Source: Elusimicrobia bacterium GWF2_62_30
GTDB lineage: Bacteria; Elusimicrobiota; Elusimicrobia; Elusimicrobiales; UBA9959
Assembly (NCBI GenBank): GCA_001799995.1
Contig: MGUK01000088.1
Coordinates: 1-54,454 of the forward strand
Reading direction: 5' to 3'
Length of the DNA: 54,454 bases
Shown here: one piece after another, positions 27,072 through 37,662 of the stretch
How the letters are laid out: the number at the start of each line of letters is the position of its first letter
How positions within the stretch are numbered: position 1 is the stretch's first letter
The notes under the pieces: model-generated
What the model was told of the DNA's origin: nothing
What the model saw: only the letters and a program-made list of their open reading frames with translations
The model's database searches: none
Program-made: the position numbers and the translations under genes

Positions 27072-28652
<1,581 letters not shown>

Positions 28653-28661
28653 GATGCCTCT

Positions 28662-29825
28662 CTAATCCAGGATTTTGCGGATGCGGGTGACGCCTTCGAT
28701 AATATCTTTCTCGGCGCCGCAGTAGCTCAGGCGCAAGTGGCCTTCCAGGCCGAACTCCACGCCGGGCACGGTCACTACCATGGCTTTTTCCAGCAGCAGC
28801 GCGGAAAGCTTGGTGGAATCTTTCTCGTAGGCGCTGAAATCGGGGAAGCTGTAGAAAGTGCCCTGCGGCTTGTGCAGCTTAACTTTCTTGAGCTTGGAGA
28901 GCTCCGCCACCATCACGTCGCGCTTCTTTTCCAGGCCCTGGCGCAGGTTCTCCACGAACCCGCCGGCCTCGTCGCGCAGGGCGCCGGCCGCGGCCGCCTG
29001 GCTGAGCGCCGACGGGCAGGAGGAGACCTGCGCCTGTACTTTTACCATGGCCTGCGTAAGGGCCTCGTTGGCCACGCTCCAGCCTATGCGGTAGCCGGTC
29101 ATGGAGAAGGTCTTGGAGACGCCGTTGATCGAGACTATGATGGACTCGTTCAAGGGGCGCTTGGAATAATTAAAGGCCGACGGCGCTTTGCGCCCGTCGA
29201 AGACCAGCCGGTTGTAGATGTCGTCCATCACCAGGTAGATGTTGCGGGCTTCGCAGACTTCCACCATCTCGTGGATGAAACTTTCCGGGTACACCTGGCC
29301 GGACGGGTTGTTGGGGCTGTTGAGGAGTATAGCCTTGGTGCTGCTGGTCAGGCGCGATTCGATGTCTTCCACCGAAGCGAGGAGCTGCCCTTCCCTGGGC
29401 TGTATCACTATGGGCGTGCCGTAGGCCAGGCGCACCATCTCCGGGTAGCTCACCCAGTAGGGGGCGGGGAAGATCACGTGGTCGCCGGGGTCCACCACCG
29501 AGATGAGGAAATTATAGATGGCCTGCTTGGCGCCGGAGGCTACCACGATGTTCTTCGGGCCGGGCTTTATGCCGTAGTACTTTTCGGTATAGGCGATTAT
29601 TTCTTTTTTGAGCGGGGCGGTGCCGGAAACGGGCGTGTAGCGCACAAAGCCGGAGTCCAGCAGTTTGCGGCTTTCGCCGTCGGCGCCGGCGGGTATTTTC
29701 TCCTCGGGCTCGCCGCCGCCCAGGTGGATGACGGGCTTGCCTTCGGCCTTCAGGTTATTGGCGAGCTCGTTTAATTTAAGGGTGGCCGACTGGCCGAGGG
29801 AGAGGGCTAGCTTGCTGAGGTTCAT
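28662..29825 (-). CDS. PLP-dependent class I aminotransferase, probably aspartate-type
   Basis: 387 residues of fold-type I aminotransferase (Igamma-like). The PLP lysine is Lys238 in INGVSKTFSMTGYRIGW. Other family marks are LGGGEPEE, VRYTPVSGTAPLKKEI, ASGAKQAIYNFL, FPAPYWVSYPEM, LLNSPNNPSGQVY, VMDDIYNRLVF and LRLSYCGAEKDI near the end. These match the bacterial aspartate/prephenate aminotransferase group, which exchanges aspartate and oxaloacetate. An AAGGGA site precedes ATG. It is followed by pckA (9 bp) and preceded by tRNA-Cys 32 bp upstream on the same strand. Pairing with PEP carboxykinase supports an oxaloacetate-linked substrate. Confidence 0.9.
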   Translation of the reverse strand: MNLSKLALSLGQSATLKLNELANNLKAEGKPVIHLGGGEPEEKIPAGADGESRKLLDSGFVRYTPVSGTAPLKKEIIAYTEKYYGIKPGPKNIVVASGAKQAIYNFLISVVDPGDHVIFPAPYWVSYPEMVRLAYGTPIVIQPREGQLLASVEDIESRLTSSTKAILLNSPNNPSGQVYPESFIHEMVEVCEARNIYLVMDDIYNRLVFDGRKAPSAFNYSKRPLNESIIVSINGVSKTFSMTGYRIGWSVANEALTQAMVKVQAQVSSCPSALSQAAAAGALRDEAGGFVENLRQGLEKKRDVMVAELSKLKKVKLHKPQGTFYSFPDFSAYEKDSTKLSALLLEKAMVVTVPGVEFGLEGHLRLSYCGAEKDIIEGVTRIRKILD

Positions 29826-29857
29826 ATTATGTCCCTTGAAAGCCCGGAAAAGAATTT

Positions 29858-29929
29858 AGGTGCGGGCGGGAATCGAACCCGCGAATAGCAGTTTTGCAGA
29901 CTGCCGCCTTACCACTTGGCCACCGCACC
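29858..29929 (-). tRNA. tRNA-Cys (GCA anticodon)
   Basis: A full cloverleaf can be drawn on the minus strand: acceptor GGTGCGG/CCGCACC, D arm GCC-AAGTGGTAA-GGC, anticodon stem GCAGT/ACTGC with loop CTGCAAA (anticodon GCA), and T arm GCGGG-TTCGAAT-CCCGC. The base after the acceptor is U, the discriminator expected for tRNA-Cys. CCA is not encoded. The aminotransferase gene begins 32 bp downstream, so co-transcription and processing are possible. Confidence 0.95.
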
Positions 29930-29980
29930 GTAATAATATCTTATCAAACTTAACCGGGGATTATAAAGGCCCCCCGTGAA

Positions 29981-32419: not shown

Positions 32420-32435
32420 TGGCATAAAAATTGTT
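32420..32435 (+). promoter_or_regulatory. Candidate sigma-54 (-24/-12) promoter
   Basis: TGGCATAAAAATTGTT matches TGGCAC-N5-TTGCW with correct GG to G(C) spacing; the -12 GC is GT here. ATG follows at 32485. Confidence 0.55.
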
Positions 32436-32484: not shown

Positions 32485-33246
32485 ATGAACAAAATAGCAA
32501 AACTCCTGATCCTGGTACTGCTGGCGTGTGCGGCGCAGCCGGCAGGTGCCTATAACGCGGCCATCACCAGCTCCGATTCCGACAGCAGTGACAGCGCTTT
32601 CTTCGCCGACCTGGCCGCGGTAGCCAGAGCGGCCGGCTCCAGTGCCCGCAAGAACAAAATGTCCCCGGCCAAAATGCAGGCCTATATAGACCAGCAGGTA
32701 CAGAAATACACCAAATTCAATCAGTTCGCCAAAGCGGAGCTGGTGGACCATTCGGTAGGCATGGTGGGGAAAATGGGCGACCCCGATGGGATGCTGGCGC
32801 AGGGCAAGGCCCTGGTCTCGGCCGACGCGGCCTCATGGAAGGGCTATGACTATCAGGCTTCCGGCTGGATGCTCAAAAAGAACGCCGATAAGGCGCTGGA
32901 GGCTTACCAGCTCGCCCTGGCCAAAGCCCCTGAGATGCAGAAGGACTGGTACCGCTATATGATGGCCGGCTGCCACAGGCAGAAGGGCGACGCGGCCAAA
33001 GCCCTGGAGCTTTACAGGACGGTACTGGCCAATGATAAGAACTGGATGGCCGTAAAAGGCGCCAGCCTGGCCGCCGGCCTGCTGCTGCTGGAGAACCGCA
33101 GGGCGGCCGAGGGTGCGGAGCTCTTCGACAAGGGCCTCTTGCTGGCCTCCGCCCGCGAGCGGAGCATGCTGCTCGGCCAGGCCGGTTTCTGCGCTAAATT
33201 CAAGCAGTTGGGCGCCGAGCCCATGGGCTGCGACCAGAGCAATTGA
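32485..33246 (+). CDS. Secreted TPR-like protein in the peptide-locus regulon
   Basis: 253 residues, no named family. A signal peptide (MNKIAKLLILVLLACAAQPA, cut near AGAYN) indicates export. A Ser/Asp-rich stretch (SSDSDSSDSAFF) follows, then a helical middle and, from about residue 115, helix pairs with TPR-like spacing (ASGWMLKKNADKALEAYQLA; MAGCHRQKGDAAKALELYRT). Two late Cys (GFCAKF, MGCDQ) are present. GAGGAA precedes ATG. The upstream control region (twin operator plus sigma-54-type promoter) is shared with the peptide/radical SAM operon that starts 290 bp downstream, so it may serve the same process, for example peptide handling or surface display. That link is inference. Confidence 0.7.
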   Translation: MNKIAKLLILVLLACAAQPAGAYNAAITSSDSDSSDSAFFADLAAVARAAGSSARKNKMSPAKMQAYIDQQVQKYTKFNQFAKAELVDHSVGMVGKMGDPDGMLAQGKALVSADAASWKGYDYQASGWMLKKNADKALEAYQLALAKAPEMQKDWYRYMMAGCHRQKGDAAKALELYRTVLANDKNWMAVKGASLAAGLLLLENRRAAEGAELFDKGLLLASARERSMLLGQAGFCAKFKQLGAEPMGCDQSN

Positions 33247-33436: not shown

Positions 33437-33452
33437 TGGCATATAAAATGCT
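33437..33452 (+). promoter_or_regulatory. Candidate sigma-54 promoter of the peptide/radical SAM operon
   Basis: TGGCATATAAAATGCT matches the -24 (TGGCA) and -12 (TGCT) elements with exact spacing. The leader to the first peptide ATG is about 75 nt and contains a GTCC-GAAA-GGAC tetraloop hairpin. Confidence 0.65.
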
Positions 33453-33535
33453 CTGTGGTGGGTGTCAGGCGCAGAAAGCTAGGCAAAGTCCGAAAGGACA
33501 AAAGTTTTAGCGAACAATTCAAGGAGACTAACAAA

Positions 33536-33679
33536 ATGGAAAAGAATGAAACAGCGGTAGCGGAACCCGGTTACTTCGTGAAGGCGGACGTGTGCCAGTA
33601 CTGCCCGGCCTGCGTGCCCTGCATCATATGCGGGAATGCCCTGGGAGTGGACCTGGCCATGGTAGCCGCGCTGGGCTAA
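33536..33679 (+). CDS. Cysteine-periodic small peptide 1 (putative RiPP precursor)
   Basis: 47 residues from ATG at 33536 with AAGGAG 9 nt before it; the frame is open further upstream, but without a ribosome site and across the leader. Residues 1-18 (MEKNETAVAEPGYFVKAD) look like a leader. Residues 19-32 (VCQYCPACVPCIIC) hold five cysteines at positions 20, 23, 26, 29 and 32, a strict C-x2-C ladder. Residues 33-47 are a hydrophobic tail (GNALGVDLAMVAALG). Position immediately before a second copy, a radical SAM/SPASM enzyme and an ABC exporter fits a modified-peptide precursor. I cannot place it in a named RiPP class. A metal-binding peptide is the alternative. Confidence 0.8.
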   Translation: MEKNETAVAEPGYFVKADVCQYCPACVPCIICGNALGVDLAMVAALG

Positions 33680-33693
33680 TAAGATCTGATACC

Positions 33694-33712
33694 CCGCCGC
33701 AATGCGCGGCGG
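33694..33712 (+). other. GC hairpin between the two peptide genes
   Basis: CCGCCGC (33694-33700) pairs with GCGGCGG (33706-33712) across a 5-nt loop, with no U-tract. It could stabilise the upstream peptide mRNA or attenuate read-through. Confidence 0.4.
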
Positions 33713-33756
33713 TTCAATACTAACCAAAAGTTCAGTAGAATATAAGGAGCGGTACC

Positions 33757-33900
33757 ATGGAAAAGATAGAGACTGCGGTGGCGGACCCGGGTTACTTTAT
33801 AAAAGCCGACGTTTGCCAGTACTGCCCGGCCTGCATTCCCTGCATCATCTGCGCGAATGCCCTGGGCGTGGACCTGGCCCTGGTGGCTACGCTGGGCTGA
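33757..33900 (+). CDS. Cysteine-periodic small peptide 2 (putative RiPP precursor, paralogue)
   Basis: 47 residues from ATG at 33757, with AAGGAG 7 nt before it. It is identical to peptide 1 at 40 of 47 positions. The substitutions are mostly conservative (E10D, V15I, V27I, G33A, M42L, A45T; N4I is not). All five cysteines (20, 23, 26, 29, 32) and the PGYF-KAD leader end are retained. The core reads VCQYCPACIPCIIC with tail ANALGVDLALVATLG. The duplicated unit includes the leader DNA (CAAAAGTT ... AAGGAG), so it arose by tandem duplication and has been held under purifying selection. The gap to the radical SAM gene (101 bp) contains GC-rich hairpins that could lower downstream expression relative to the peptides. 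Confidence 0.8.
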   Translation: MEKIETAVADPGYFIKADVCQYCPACIPCIICANALGVDLALVATLG

Positions 33901-34001
33901 GCGACCGGTAAAGTTTTTTGCGGCCGTCCCGCGGCCCCTCCGGACCGGAAGGCCCGGCGGGAACTTCGGGGCGGCTGCGGTTATCTCAAGGAGAGCTGAA
34001 C

Positions 34002-35378
34002 ATGAGCGACGTCTATGTGTCATTGGCCGAAAAACTGATCTACCAGCGCAACCCCAAAGGCCTGGACGTGCGGATGCCTTCTTCGGACGACAACTGGAAC
34101 AAGAAAAGGGTGTCCATGAACATGGACGGGGCGCGGCTCATAGAGGCCTGCGCGGACGGGGGCGGCACGGTCGCGGAAATAACCGGAAGGTACAATGCGA
34201 AATACCCGGAGCGGAAGCTGCCGCATGAAAAAGCCGTAGCCTTCTTCAAACGGGCCGCGCTGGACGGGCTGGTGAAGCTGAGCAAAGAGCGGGACGGCGG
34301 CAGGGTGGAGATAAAAGGCTCCGCCACGCTGTATTACCCGCAGCATATGTCCATAGAGCTGACCAGCCGCTGCAATTACCGGTGCAAGCACTGCTACCGG
34401 GGCAGCTCACCGGACGGCGGCGAGGACATCAACTTCGAAAAGCTGATGAAGTTCCTGGACGATTTTTCCATGCACGGCGGGAGCGCGGTTGAGTTCACCG
34501 GCGGCGAGCCGATGCTGAACCCTAAATTTTTCGAGATCATAAACTTCGCGGTGACGCGGTTCCCGATAGTGGCCATCATCACCAATGGATATCTGCTCGA
34601 CGAGGCGGCGCAGCGGCGGCTGCTCCCGTATAAGGAGATCCTGAAGTTCAATATCAGCCTGGACAGCCACCTGCCCGAATACCACAACAGGTTCCGCGGC
34701 AAGAGCGACGCCTACGAGCACACCGTGAAGAACCTGGAGGCCCTCGGCAAGAACGGCTTCATGTTCCGCGTGGCGATGAGCATCACGCACGAGAACTATA
34801 TGCACTTGGAGGAAACCCTGAAGCTGGCGAAAAAACTCGGCGCTACCAAGTTCGTCTACAGCCTGGTGCAGGACGTGGGCCGCGGCGAAGATACCGGGGT
34901 GGTGGTGCAGCAGGCCAAGGGGGAGTTTGAAAAGTACATGGCTTATGAGCAGCGCATCCAGACCGAATACAAGGACATCATCCATTTCGTCTCTCCCGAA
35001 GCCAAAAAAGAGGCGGAAGCAAGCAACTGCGGCATCATACAGCGCTCCTTCGTGCTGGGCCCCGAGGGCGAACTGCGCCCGTGCGTGATGTTCGATGCCA
35101 GCCTGCGCATCGGCAACATCTACAAGCAGCCTTTCGAGGAGATCTTCGGCAGCGGGCTGTCGGCCGAGTTCACCAAGATCCACGCGCCCAAGGAGTCCGT
35201 CTGCGGCAAGTGCGAGCACCTGGCGCTGTACTGCAAGGGCTGCATCCTCAAGGGGATCAAGCGGGGCCGGACGGTGAAGGACTGCCCCTGGCTCAAGCAG
35301 CCGGGCATCGCCAAGTATTTCAGCGAGGCGCCCGTGGAGCGGAGCTGCGCCAATTACAGGGAGCATGTCTGTGACTAA
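34002..35378 (+). CDS. Radical SAM/SPASM peptide maturase with N-terminal PqqD-like domain
   Basis: 458 residues from ATG at 34002 (AAGGAG 8 nt upstream). Residues about 40-100 form a PqqD-like RiPP recognition element (ARLIEACADGGGTVAEITGR ... AVAFFKRAALDGLVKL). The radical SAM core begins at ELTSRCNYRCKHCYRGS, with the CxxxCxxC [4Fe-4S] ligands at Cys124, Cys128 and Cys131, followed by EFTGGEPMLNP. The C-terminal SPASM region supplies auxiliary cluster cysteines (SNCGIIQRS, LRPCVMFD, SVCGKCEHLALYCKGC, VKDCPW). Such enzymes install thioether or carbon-carbon links on peptides bound through the PqqD domain; the Cys-ladder peptides just upstream are the obvious substrates. The 3' end overlaps the ABC ATPase gene by 14 bp. 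The bond type cannot be told from sequence. Confidence 0.93.
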   Translation: MSDVYVSLAEKLIYQRNPKGLDVRMPSSDDNWNKKRVSMNMDGARLIEACADGGGTVAEITGRYNAKYPERKLPHEKAVAFFKRAALDGLVKLSKERDGGRVEIKGSATLYYPQHMSIELTSRCNYRCKHCYRGSSPDGGEDINFEKLMKFLDDFSMHGGSAVEFTGGEPMLNPKFFEIINFAVTRFPIVAIITNGYLLDEAAQRRLLPYKEILKFNISLDSHLPEYHNRFRGKSDAYEHTVKNLEALGKNGFMFRVAMSITHENYMHLEETLKLAKKLGATKFVYSLVQDVGRGEDTGVVVQQAKGEFEKYMAYEQRIQTEYKDIIHFVSPEAKKEAEASNCGIIQRSFVLGPEGELRPCVMFDASLRIGNIYKQPFEEIFGSGLSAEFTKIHAPKESVCGKCEHLALYCKGCILKGIKRGRTVKDCPWLKQPGIAKYFSEAPVERSCANYREHVCD

Positions 35379-36321
35379 CCTGCTGGAGGTTACCGGTCTG
35401 ACCAAGAAATTCACGCCCACGGCCGGCGTGGAGGACGTGAGCTTTGCGCTCAAGCCCGGGCGCGTGCTGGCCTACCTGGGCCATAACGGCGCGGGCAAGA
35501 CCACCACCATACGCAGCGTGCTGGGCCTGCTCAAGAAGGACTCCGGCACGGTGGCCTACCAGGGCGCCGTTTGCGATACGGAAGCGCTGGAATACGACCG
35601 CGTGCGCCTGAATTTCGGCGTCTGCCTGGACACGCCGGGCTTCTACCCGGGCATGACGGCCCTGCGCAACCTGGAGCTTTTCGCCTCGCTTTACGACCTG
35701 CGCGGCGCCCGGTTCCGGGCGCGGGCCGAAGAGCTGCTGAAAAAGCTGGGGCTTTACGAAGTGCGCGGCAACGCGGTAAAGACCTATTCCAAGGGCATGC
35801 AGCAGAAGCTGGCGCTGGCGCGCGCTATCCTGCATAAGCCCAAGGTGCTTTTCCTCGACGAGCCGATGAGCGGCCTGGACCCGGAGGCCCGCATCCTGAT
35901 GCGCGGCTACCTGGAGGAGCTGTCGAAGAAAGAGGGGCTGGCCGTGTTCTTAACTTCGCACGACCTCAACGAAGTGGAGCAGCTGGCCGACGAGGTGTTC
36001 ATCCTGGAAAAAGGCAAAGTAATCCTTTCCGGGGAGCTGGAAGCGCTGAAGAAGGCGCGCGGCGCCGAAAGGTACGTGATAACTTTCGAGGCGGCTCCCG
36101 CGCAGGACGCGGCGCGGGCCCTGGCCGGGGCGCTCTCGGCTTCCTTCGTGAAGCTGCAGGGGCGCGAACTTACCGTGGAGAGCGAAAAGCCCGTGGAGCT
36201 GGCGCAGGCGGTAACGGCCGGCGCGGGGCTGGGGCTGAAGACGGCGGAGTTTAAAAAACAGTCCGCCAGCCTGGAGCAGATCTACTTCGAGTCGCTGCAC
36301 CGCAATGAAAATAAGCCTTGA
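35365..36321 (+). CDS. ABC transporter ATP-binding protein of the peptide locus
   Basis: 318 residues. Walker A is GHNGAGKTTT (residues about 39-48), the signature is YSKGMQQKLALARAIL, Walker B is VLFLDEPMSG, and the switch His is in LTSHDLNEVEQLADEV. The C-terminal 90 residues form an accessory domain (ERYVITFEAAPAQDAARALA) as in DrrA/NatA-type exporters. It powers export by the two membrane subunits encoded next, with which it overlaps by 17 bp. The gene overlaps the radical SAM gene by 14 bp, so all are translated from one message. The likely cargo is the modified peptide; self-protection export is an alternative. Confidence 0.93.
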   Translation: MSVTNLLEVTGLTKKFTPTAGVEDVSFALKPGRVLAYLGHNGAGKTTTIRSVLGLLKKDSGTVAYQGAVCDTEALEYDRVRLNFGVCLDTPGFYPGMTALRNLELFASLYDLRGARFRARAEELLKKLGLYEVRGNAVKTYSKGMQQKLALARAILHKPKVLFLDEPMSGLDPEARILMRGYLEELSKKEGLAVFLTSHDLNEVEQLADEVFILEKGKVILSGELEALKKARGAERYVITFEAAPAQDAARALAGALSASFVKLQGRELTVESEKPVELAQAVTAGAGLGLKTAEFKKQSASLEQIYFESLHRNENKP

Positions 36322-36979
36322 AAGAACGCTGCTCCGGTTCGAGCTCGAGGACCTGCTGCTGAGTAAGGACGGCCTGCTCAAGTTCGCGCTCTTCCAGTTC
36401 ATCCTGTGGTTCTCCACCCGCCGGACGGCGGCGGAGCTTTACGCCGGCTCGCCCGACTACTGGGCCAGCTTCATCCTGCTGCAGGGTTTCGCCAGCGCGT
36501 GCCTGCTCAATTCGCTGTGCGCCATGAGCCTGTTCGTACGGCCCAAGCTGGGCCGCACCATAGAGCTGCTGCTCAGCTCCCGCCTGCGGCCCGAGACCAT
36601 AGCCTGCACCAGCGTGACGGCCAGCCTTATCAATAACGCGGCCTCCCTGCTGTGCTACTTCCTTATATTAGGCTGGACTATCGGCAAGACGGACTTCGGC
36701 TGGCGGCACGTCCTGCCGTTCGTGTCGCTCTTGGCGGCCAACGCCATTACGCTGGTGCTGACGTCCTTCGTGGTCCTGCAGACCAGGCACGGGCAGCACC
36801 TGGCCTCCGGTTTCATACTTTTCTCGCTTATGCTCACGGTGTTGGCCGGCATCTACAAGCTGGAGTTCAGCCCCGCCGCGGGAGCGCAGTGGCTGCTGGC
36901 GGCCGTGCTCTTATTAGCGCTGGCCCTTTCCACCGCGGTCTTCGGCCTGTTCGACAAGGAAAAAATAGTTTCGTCATGA
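36305..36979 (+). CDS. ABC-2-type membrane subunit, first
   Basis: 224 residues with about six hydrophobic helices (FILLQGFASACLLNSLCAMS, SLINNAASLLCYFLILG, VLPFVSLLAANAITLVLTSF, GFILFSLMLTVLAGI, WLLAAVLLLALALSTAVFG). The N-terminus MKISLERTLLRFELEDLLLS is the cytoplasmic amphipathic lead typical of ABC-2 permeases. Sequence detail is too divergent to name a subfamily. It overlaps the ATPase gene by 17 bp and the next permease gene by 4 bp (ATGA), which argues for a heterodimeric channel. Confidence 0.8.
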   Translation: MKISLERTLLRFELEDLLLSKDGLLKFALFQFILWFSTRRTAAELYAGSPDYWASFILLQGFASACLLNSLCAMSLFVRPKLGRTIELLLSSRLRPETIACTSVTASLINNAASLLCYFLILGWTIGKTDFGWRHVLPFVSLLAANAITLVLTSFVVLQTRHGQHLASGFILFSLMLTVLAGIYKLEFSPAAGAQWLLAAVLLLALALSTAVFGLFDKEKIVSS

Positions 36980-37662
36980 AATACACCGGCCTCTTCTTCC
37001 GGCTCACCCTGCGGGAGGTTTTCCGCTTCCCCATGTTCTACCTGGCCACCATCGTGTCCGGGGCGGTGATGTTCATGCTGCTGGGCCGGATGGGGGGAGT
37101 GTTTGATATCCAGGCGGTGGCCGACCTGGCGGCCGGCCAACTGGTTTATGTGCTGCTCTCGCTGGGCATGCTGCTGATCTTTATGTGCGCCATGCCGGTG
37201 TTCATAAACGAGAAACAGCAGAAGATACTGCCGGTGCTGATGTATTCGCCGGCGAATTTCAGGGAAATACTGCTGGGCAAAAGCCTGGCGCTGGTCTTTG
37301 CGGCCATCGTATCCTCCCTGGCTTCCTTCACCGGCCCGCTGCTCTCGCACCCTGCGCTGCTGCGCGCCATGGCCGCCCCCGGCATAGCCGCGGCCCTGGC
37401 CCTTATCTTCGCTACGCTGCTGGTCTTCACGCTCATAATAGGCATGCTGCTCCTGTGCGCGCCGGACATCAAAGTGCTTTACCCGGCGCTCTTCTTCCTT
37501 AACTATATCCCTATGGAAGCCCAGAAGCGCGGCAAGCTTTATATGGAGGCGCACGGCATAGGCGGCATAAACTGGCTGTACCTGCTGTCGCTGGGCGTGC
37601 TGGCCCTCATAGCCGCCGGCGTCTACCGGCTGTACTTCTCCAAGGCCAGGATGACGGCCTGA
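36976..37662 (+). CDS. ABC-2-type membrane subunit, second
   Basis: 228 residues from ATG at 36976, whose ATGA overlaps the stop of the preceding gene; the frame is open further upstream but lies inside that gene. Six membrane helices are evident (FYLATIVSGAVMFMLLG, LVYVLLSLGMLLIFMCAMPV, ALVFAAIVSSLASFTGPLL, IAAALALIFATLLVFTLIIG, VLYPALFFLNYIPM, WLYLLSLGVLALIAAGVY). The cytoplasmic loop INEKQQKILPVLMYSPANFR, between helices 2 and 3, is typical of ABC-2 permeases such as those paired with NatA-type ATPases. It ends the peptide operon; a GC hairpin follows at 37674. Confidence 0.82.
   Translation: MKYTGLFFRLTLREVFRFPMFYLATIVSGAVMFMLLGRMGGVFDIQAVADLAAGQLVYVLLSLGMLLIFMCAMPVFINEKQQKILPVLMYSPANFREILLGKSLALVFAAIVSSLASFTGPLLSHPALLRAMAAPGIAAALALIFATLLVFTLIIGMLLLCAPDIKVLYPALFFLNYIPMEAQKRGKLYMEAHGIGGINWLYLLSLGVLALIAAGVYRLYFSKARMTA

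Follow-up and report, generated by a model that had tools for sequence, protein, structure and literature searches.

A conserved radical SAM peptide cassette in Elusimicrobiota, best read as sactipeptide-like, with five-cysteine precursors and a TPR partner

Contig MGUK01000088.1 of Elusimicrobia bacterium GWF2_62_30, a stretch of 54,454 nucleotides referred to throughout as the window, carries a gene set that encodes two short cysteine-ladder peptides, a radical SAM/SPASM maturase, a tetratricopeptide repeat (TPR) protein and the components of an ABC transporter (Table 1). This set is a real, conserved cassette for a ribosomally synthesized and post-translationally modified peptide (RiPP) and is best read as sactipeptide-like. 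From sequence comparison and by analogy with characterized systems, we consider it likely that the cassette makes and exports a peptide folded into a nested thioether hairpin. This reading draws on the pairing of peptides and maturase in eight of nine genomes, on AlbA and SkfB as the best matches of the maturase, on a predicted fold like that of a RiPP recognition element (RRE) at its N-terminus, on the matching parts of the thurincin H system, on a TPR protein found in the same genomes and on a similar cassette in Bacillota.

A preliminary description of the window had recognized the two 47-residue five-cysteine peptides, the 458-residue radical SAM enzyme with its SPASM cysteines, and an ATPase and two permeases with overlaps of 4-17 bp, all of which are borne out; by their coordinates, the ATPase, permease 1 and permease 2 genes overlap their upstream neighbors by 14, 17 and 4 bp, respectively. 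Its RiPP reading likewise gains from the peptide-maturase pairing, whereas the claim that the ladder resembles no known sactipeptide and the dedication ascribed to the transporter were overstated. The gene set itself was incomplete: the cassette starts with the TPR gene at 32485, upstream of base 33437, which opens a promoter-like site.

Precursor peptides and maturase

Both window peptides have their cysteines at residues 20, 23, 26, 29 and 32, an exact C-x2-C ladder. Between their genes there are 22 differences in 141 bases, 16 of these at third codon positions (dN 0.084, dS 0.57). Among 1311 open reading frames (ORFs) of 25-110 amino acids from 12 loci, a four-cysteine ladder with a cysteine at every third residue occurs in 12, all of them cassette peptides. 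Because the changes fall mostly at third positions and the ladders are confined to cassette peptides, both the pair and the ladders exceed chance. All 12 peptides thus have at least four cysteines, at every third residue of the N-terminal part of the core, which is the donor layout of a thurincin H-type hairpin. A fifth cysteine follows at the same spacing in ten; the G134 peptide has four, and in one G128 copy the fifth is shifted by one. The ladder cysteines are invariant and the leaders short, with 19 residues before the first cysteine in the window peptides and 13 in their relatives, and the leader-like N-terminus is conserved apart from the ladder.

A profile built from six maturases, run against 340 Elusimicrobiota genomes at E<=1e-50, found the maturase in nine, six of the window genus (its own genome included), two of the same family and one of the same order. 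Ladder peptides lie upstream of the maturase in eight of the nine, with one to three per locus and 12 copies overall, so that the co-occurrence in other genomes which the preliminary description had named as a check is indeed conserved. Draft assemblies may hide some tandem copies; in G125 an assembly break falls inside a peptide gene, and the contig ends (C6:1-40 and the end of C18) have an exact 40-base overlap. A peptide profile run against the same 340 genomes gave 12 strong matches (E<=3.5e-11), all in the eight genomes with both peptide and maturase, with the next best at 8.9e-4; this search is partly circular, since 11 of the 12 strong matches were members of the profile. Ladder peptides widespread without the maturase, the finding that the preliminary description held would count against it, were not seen at this strength, and nine further genomes have weak matches (E 8.9e-4 to 0.008) outside the strong set. 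With a single window peptide as query, the best match outside its own genome had an E-value of 0.003 per genome, which is chance level for a search of 340. Comparative genomics supports the RiPP reading, for which the chemistry would be that proposed below.

The ladder could instead bind a metal or an iron-sulfur cluster while the maturase acts on something else. The sole matches of the peptide profile in the PDB are mostly 4Fe-4S proteins, at chance level (E 0.5 and worse), and the window peptides themselves match nothing significantly there; they gave chance-level matches in NCBIfam (E 0.12 and 0.3) and none in Pfam, where no ferredoxin-type family was matched. Given a fixed neighborhood with an AlbA-like maturase in eight of nine genomes, and an N-terminus conserved as a leader would be, we regard metal binding as very improbable.

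The window maturase has the radical SAM motif C124-x3-C128-x2-C131, and Pfam Radical_SAM and SPASM were both found in all seven homologues; SPASM cysteines are spaced C-x5-C-x2-C in seven of eight full-length maturases and C-x6-C-x2-C in the window enzyme. AlbA was matched by all nine maturases, its E-value being the best among NCBIfam families (5.7e-71), and is the top family of the window maturase, at 220.3 bits (NF012164). Run on the window's own genome, the AlbA model scores this maturase at 220 bits and the next-best radical SAM protein at 63. Such proteins are numerous there, with 29 places matching the maturase at E<=0.001, itself included. SkfB is the top solved relative both by profile (103.5 bits, next 57) and by predicted fold (E 4.7e-16, followed by SuiB), the fold match being of limited weight because the maturase model is weak overall. 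In the prediction, residues 1-100 form strands, three helices and a strand, with a predicted local distance difference test score (pLDDT) of 81-87 at residues 41-100 and 56-60 at 21-40, which suggests a PqqD-like, RRE-like N-terminal fold.

Several observations weigh against a sactipeptide assignment. The AlbA score falls short of the curated cut-off of 850 bits, as do those for SkfB (TIGR04403; 80.1 bits, cut-off 300) and the StsB sactipeptide maturase (NF045574; 93.2 bits, cut-off 625). The maturase prediction, based on seven sequences, has a mean pLDDT of 61.9, with the SPASM half mostly below 50. The PqqD-like N-terminus claimed in the preliminary description is suggested by the predicted fold and not by Pfam, in which PqqD was matched by one of seven homologues (E 0.088, not significant), and the N-terminal 104 residues gave chance matches only against the PDB. 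The cassette has no protease gene, and G082 has a maturase with no ladder peptide within 16 kb. The tails of the window peptides are also short, at 15 residues, and in the register of thurincin H (offset 6, then every third residue) they have acceptor room for four of the five cysteines; the rung number is therefore left at four or five. The nine other unmasked Elusimicrobiota peptides, of 11 in all, have tails of 19-24 residues, and every one of them has room for an acceptor to each cysteine. The G082 maturase, in the stretch L141:7077-9676, is of the cassette type with 38% identity, and a subtilase gene overlaps it by 4 bases.

The same cassette logic would also fit beta- or gamma-carbon thioethers, as in ranthipeptides, or another radical link, since sequence alone cannot tell an alpha linkage and SPASM enzymes of other chemistries do match the maturase, among them the PapB ranthipeptide maturase (NF047865) at 62 bits and the mycofactocin family at 100.7 bits. 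We find such linkages unlikely, as the alpha-linking AlbA and SkfB lead the comparisons whereas PapB is far weaker (its cut-off is 340 bits), and the nested every-third-cysteine layout is that of thurincin H, as described in the excerpted account of that peptide.

TPR partner, transporter and promoter-like sites

The 253-amino-acid product of the first gene is a cassette member. Its homologues occur in exactly the same six of 61 relatives as the maturase, a coincidence with a probability of 1.8e-8 under independent draws, a figure overstated by the kinship of the genomes. The protein is predicted as an all-helical repeat fold (pLDDT 80.7), with designed TPRs and MamA as its nearest solved folds, none at E<=0.001, and its score for Pfam TPR falls short of the cut-off. 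Two C-terminal cysteines are invariant across six aligned homologues, and the protein is probably secreted and periplasmic. The gene is downstream of the permeases in G119; the G125 copy is at the end of a contig, in a part having 40 bases in common with the peptide-bearing contig. A tblastn search detected no homologue either in the G082 stretch or in the contig of G159, whose end falls within the maturase.

Table 1 Features of the cassette in the window
Feature	Position	Strand	Remarks
Promoter-like site, sigma-54 type (GG-N10-GC), one mismatch to TGGCAYRNNNNWTGCW	32420..32435	+	65 bases 5' of TPR gene
TPR protein, 253 amino acids, signal-peptide-like start (by eye)	32485..33246	+	Co-occurrence with maturase; predicted all-helical fold
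Promoter-like site TGGCATATAAAATGCT	33437..33452	+	GG-N10-GC; 99 bases 5' of peptide 1
Precursor peptide 1, 47 amino acids, five-cysteine ladder	33536..33679	+	
Precursor peptide 2, 47 amino acids, five-cysteine ladder, 85% identity to peptide 1	33757..33900	+	
Radical SAM/SPASM maturase, 458 amino acids, predicted PqqD-like N-terminus, AlbA-like	34002..35378	+	
ABC transporter ATPase, DrrA-like	35365..36321	+	207.7 bits; below the cut-off of 312.45
Permease 1	36305..36979	+	Weak ABC-2 match
Permease 2	36976..37662	+	Weak ABC-2 match

The ATPase and two permeases described earlier as a dedicated three-part exporter are present, yet they are less strictly tied to the maturase than that wording implies. 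Six of the 61 genomes encode permease 2, and the maturase is present in five of these; the match in G131, which has no maturase, is weak (E 6.9e-15), and in G128 the cassette transporter is absent at the cassette, with an MsbA-type exporter nearby that it has in common with G125 (76% identity). Relatives of the ATPase include drug- and lantibiotic-protection transporters, the family cut-offs being unmet. Related proteins of 541-548 amino acids with no Pfam match are encoded near the cassettes of G128 (L049:11308-12954) and G125 (L172:2985-4613).

A GG followed ten bases later by a GC is the spacing of sigma-54 promoters. Two exact matches of TGGCATANNNNWTGCT occur in the 2.9 Mb genome, which has a gene for a sigma-54 DNA-binding domain; one is the site at 33437-33452, and the other (G000:C15:28432-28447, L171) is directly 5' of an MFS transporter gene. 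Sites of the GG-N10-GC type as such are not above chance in the window (3, versus a chance mean of 3.2). With at most one mismatch, a site lies within 300 bp 5' of the TPR gene in six of seven genomes, the exception being G129, in which the start codon is uncertain, and within 300 bp 5' of four of the 12 peptide genes. As background, 31 of 3188 overlapping stretches of 300 bp contain such a site, cassette sites counted in. The exact pattern was counted in 20 chosen genomes, with 73 occurrences versus three for the reversed control. Because 10 of the 11 genomes that lack the cassette have it too, we take it as the mark of a wider regulon, from whose sigma-54-type promoters the cassette is probably transcribed.

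Genomic surroundings

We compared the 20-50 kb part of the window by blastn with nine stretches that contain the cassette or its edge. Positions 27079-29951, which by eye encode a phosphoenolpyruvate (PEP) carboxykinase and an aminotransferase, have 82% identity to the G125 and G128 stretches, in the opposite orientation relative to the cassette. This gene pair is separated from the cassette by about 2.5 kb in the window, by about 3 kb in G125 and, counted from the maturase, by about 4.4 kb in G128. A NifU/IscS-like pair adjoining the cassette is common to G128 and G150 (86% over 2 kb). For G134, G129, G119, G159 and G082, no flank in common with the window was seen by blastn in the available sequence. 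The idea that the cassette sits at unrelated chromosomal places was rejected on these shared neighborhoods. With at least three or four cassettes involved, they favor inheritance followed by loss across most of the genus, or else a common insertion site, over free movement. Free mobility is therefore not usable as support for a bacteriocin role, which slightly lowers our confidence in the reading as a whole. A 270-base stretch just 5' of the G119 peptide gene (L140:8909-9178) has 69.6% identity to G150 (L046:5940-6209).

Outside the phylum, 74 maturase-like loci were collected from among the best 80 of 101 matches. Near 37 of these 74, short plus-strand ORFs contained looser cysteine patterns only and no four-cysteine every-third-residue ladder, and AlbA was not matched at E<=1e-25 by any of the eight maturases of the 74 that were run on NCBIfam. 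Among the literature matches listed (titles and abstract starts), there was no on-point account of sactipeptides, RiPPs, radical SAM peptide maturases or biosynthetic gene clusters of Elusimicrobia.

Proposed pathway and function

By analogy with AlbA and ThnB, we propose a pathway in which the maturase would bind the short leader through its PqqD-like domain and, as a radical SAM/SPASM enzyme, would link the sulfurs of the ladder cysteines to alpha-carbons in the cysteine-free tail, which is rich in Ala, Gly and Val. The product would be a thurincin H-like nested hairpin of four or five rungs. Its transport across the inner membrane, protection of the producer, or both may fall to the ABC transporter, and the TPR protein, probably in the periplasm, may bind the peptide, guard against it or pass it on. 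Transcription would probably start from the sigma-54-type promoters, and the likeliest use of the product would be the antagonism of other bacteria.

A modified and exported peptide could be compatible with this chemistry while acting as a signal or in the physiology of the producer instead of as a bacteriocin. No immunity gene is recognized, the promoter-like sites suggest regulated expression, and inheritance, in place of free mobility, may explain the neighborhood common to three cassettes, all of which would suit such a role; it is nonetheless doubtful in our view, since occurrence is patchy (9 of 340 genomes), tandem copies diverge, tails are variable and the kin of the ATPase serve in protection against drugs and lantibiotics, short of the family cut-offs. 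Turning back to a sactipeptide-type cassette aimed at other bacteria, its further separation into a distinct branch, with a five-rung nested hairpin (thurincin H plus one) and a dedicated, probably periplasmic TPR partner, is a possibility that we put forward only tentatively.

If the sactipeptide assignment is correct, thurincin H-like thioether peptides extend to Elusimicrobiota. The 12 peptides, with four or five cysteines and, for the 11 unmasked ones, tail lengths of 15-24 residues, form a natural set for the study of acceptor choice and of the maximum number of rungs that a sactisynthase can make. The TPR partner, by its presence in the same genomes as the maturase, offers a handle on export or on self-survival of the producer, and a TPR protein with the task of receiving the peptide, guarding against it or handing it on would add a working part new to sactipeptides.

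Comparison with known systems

A close described parallel is thurincin H. In the excerpted account of this system (PMC8172795), its bridges are Cys4-Ser28, Cys7-Thr25, Cys10-Thr22 and Cys13-Asn19, with donors and acceptors both three apart; the earlier view that an every-third-cysteine ladder is unlike any known sactipeptide was thus wrong. The thn cluster of Bacillus thuringiensis SF361 contains three copies of a 40-amino-acid precursor, the PqqD-domain radical SAM enzyme ThnB and a three-component ABC transporter (PMC8172795); thnD and thnE are termed immunity genes in the excerpts of PMC13239113. The repeated short precursors, the every-third cysteines, a radical SAM enzyme and the three-part transporter are all paralleled in the window, where the predicted fold of the enzyme suggests a PqqD-like domain. 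The auxiliary cysteines of ThnB, at 449, 455 and 458 (PMC8172795), have the same x5, x2 spacing as seven of eight Elusimicrobiota maturases, ThnB being compared by description. Thurincin H differs in having four cysteines against usually five, a protease (ThnP) and a regulator, and in belonging to Bacillota; the excerpted account mentions no TPR protein. Gnavucin D of Mediterraneibacter gnavus (2026), a thurincin H-like peptide, is likewise encoded by tandem precursors, five in number with 9-amino-acid leaders, and no leader peptidase was found for it in the excerpted report, as in our protease-free cassette (PMC13239113). It differs, again by description, in its four predicted bridges and in its origin in Bacillota (PMC13239113).

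Subtilosin A is linked to the cassette by AlbA, the best NCBIfam model for the window maturase and one matched by all nine homologues, which has a PqqD-like RRE domain, as does ThnB (PMC8172795, in excerpt); the 850-bit cut-off is far off, and subtilosin is macrocyclic with three thioether bridges, according to the excerpts of PMC8172795 and PMC13239113. Similarly, the sporulation killing factor system provides SkfB, which leads the solved relatives in profile and fold comparisons alike, whereas SkfA has one thioether and one disulfide (PMC8172795, in excerpt) and SkfB scores 80.1 of the 300 bits set for its family.

A further such peptide is encoded on the Anaerococcus prevotii plasmid pAPRE01 (NC_013164.1; L176:3363-5721), in which a 41-amino-acid product annotated as a 'hypothetical protein' has an exact five-cysteine ladder and a leader with PEIV, 5' of a radical SAM enzyme with AlbA as its best family (101.5 bits) and of an ABC ATPase gene, which is followed by two genes annotated as beta-carotene monooxygenase and hypothetical protein. 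Its 17-residue tail, like those of the window peptides, has acceptor room for four of five cysteines. This locus differs in its maturase (26.7% identity over 72%) and its histidine kinase and regulator, and no TPR gene is annotated in its 9 kb. Because pAPRE01 has such a ladder beside an AlbA-best maturase, the five-cysteine ladder is not unique to Elusimicrobiota. The window cassette is best read as one for a thurincin H/subtilosin-like peptide with a fifth cysteine and a TPR partner, and these two features, together with the phylum, are what is unusual about it.

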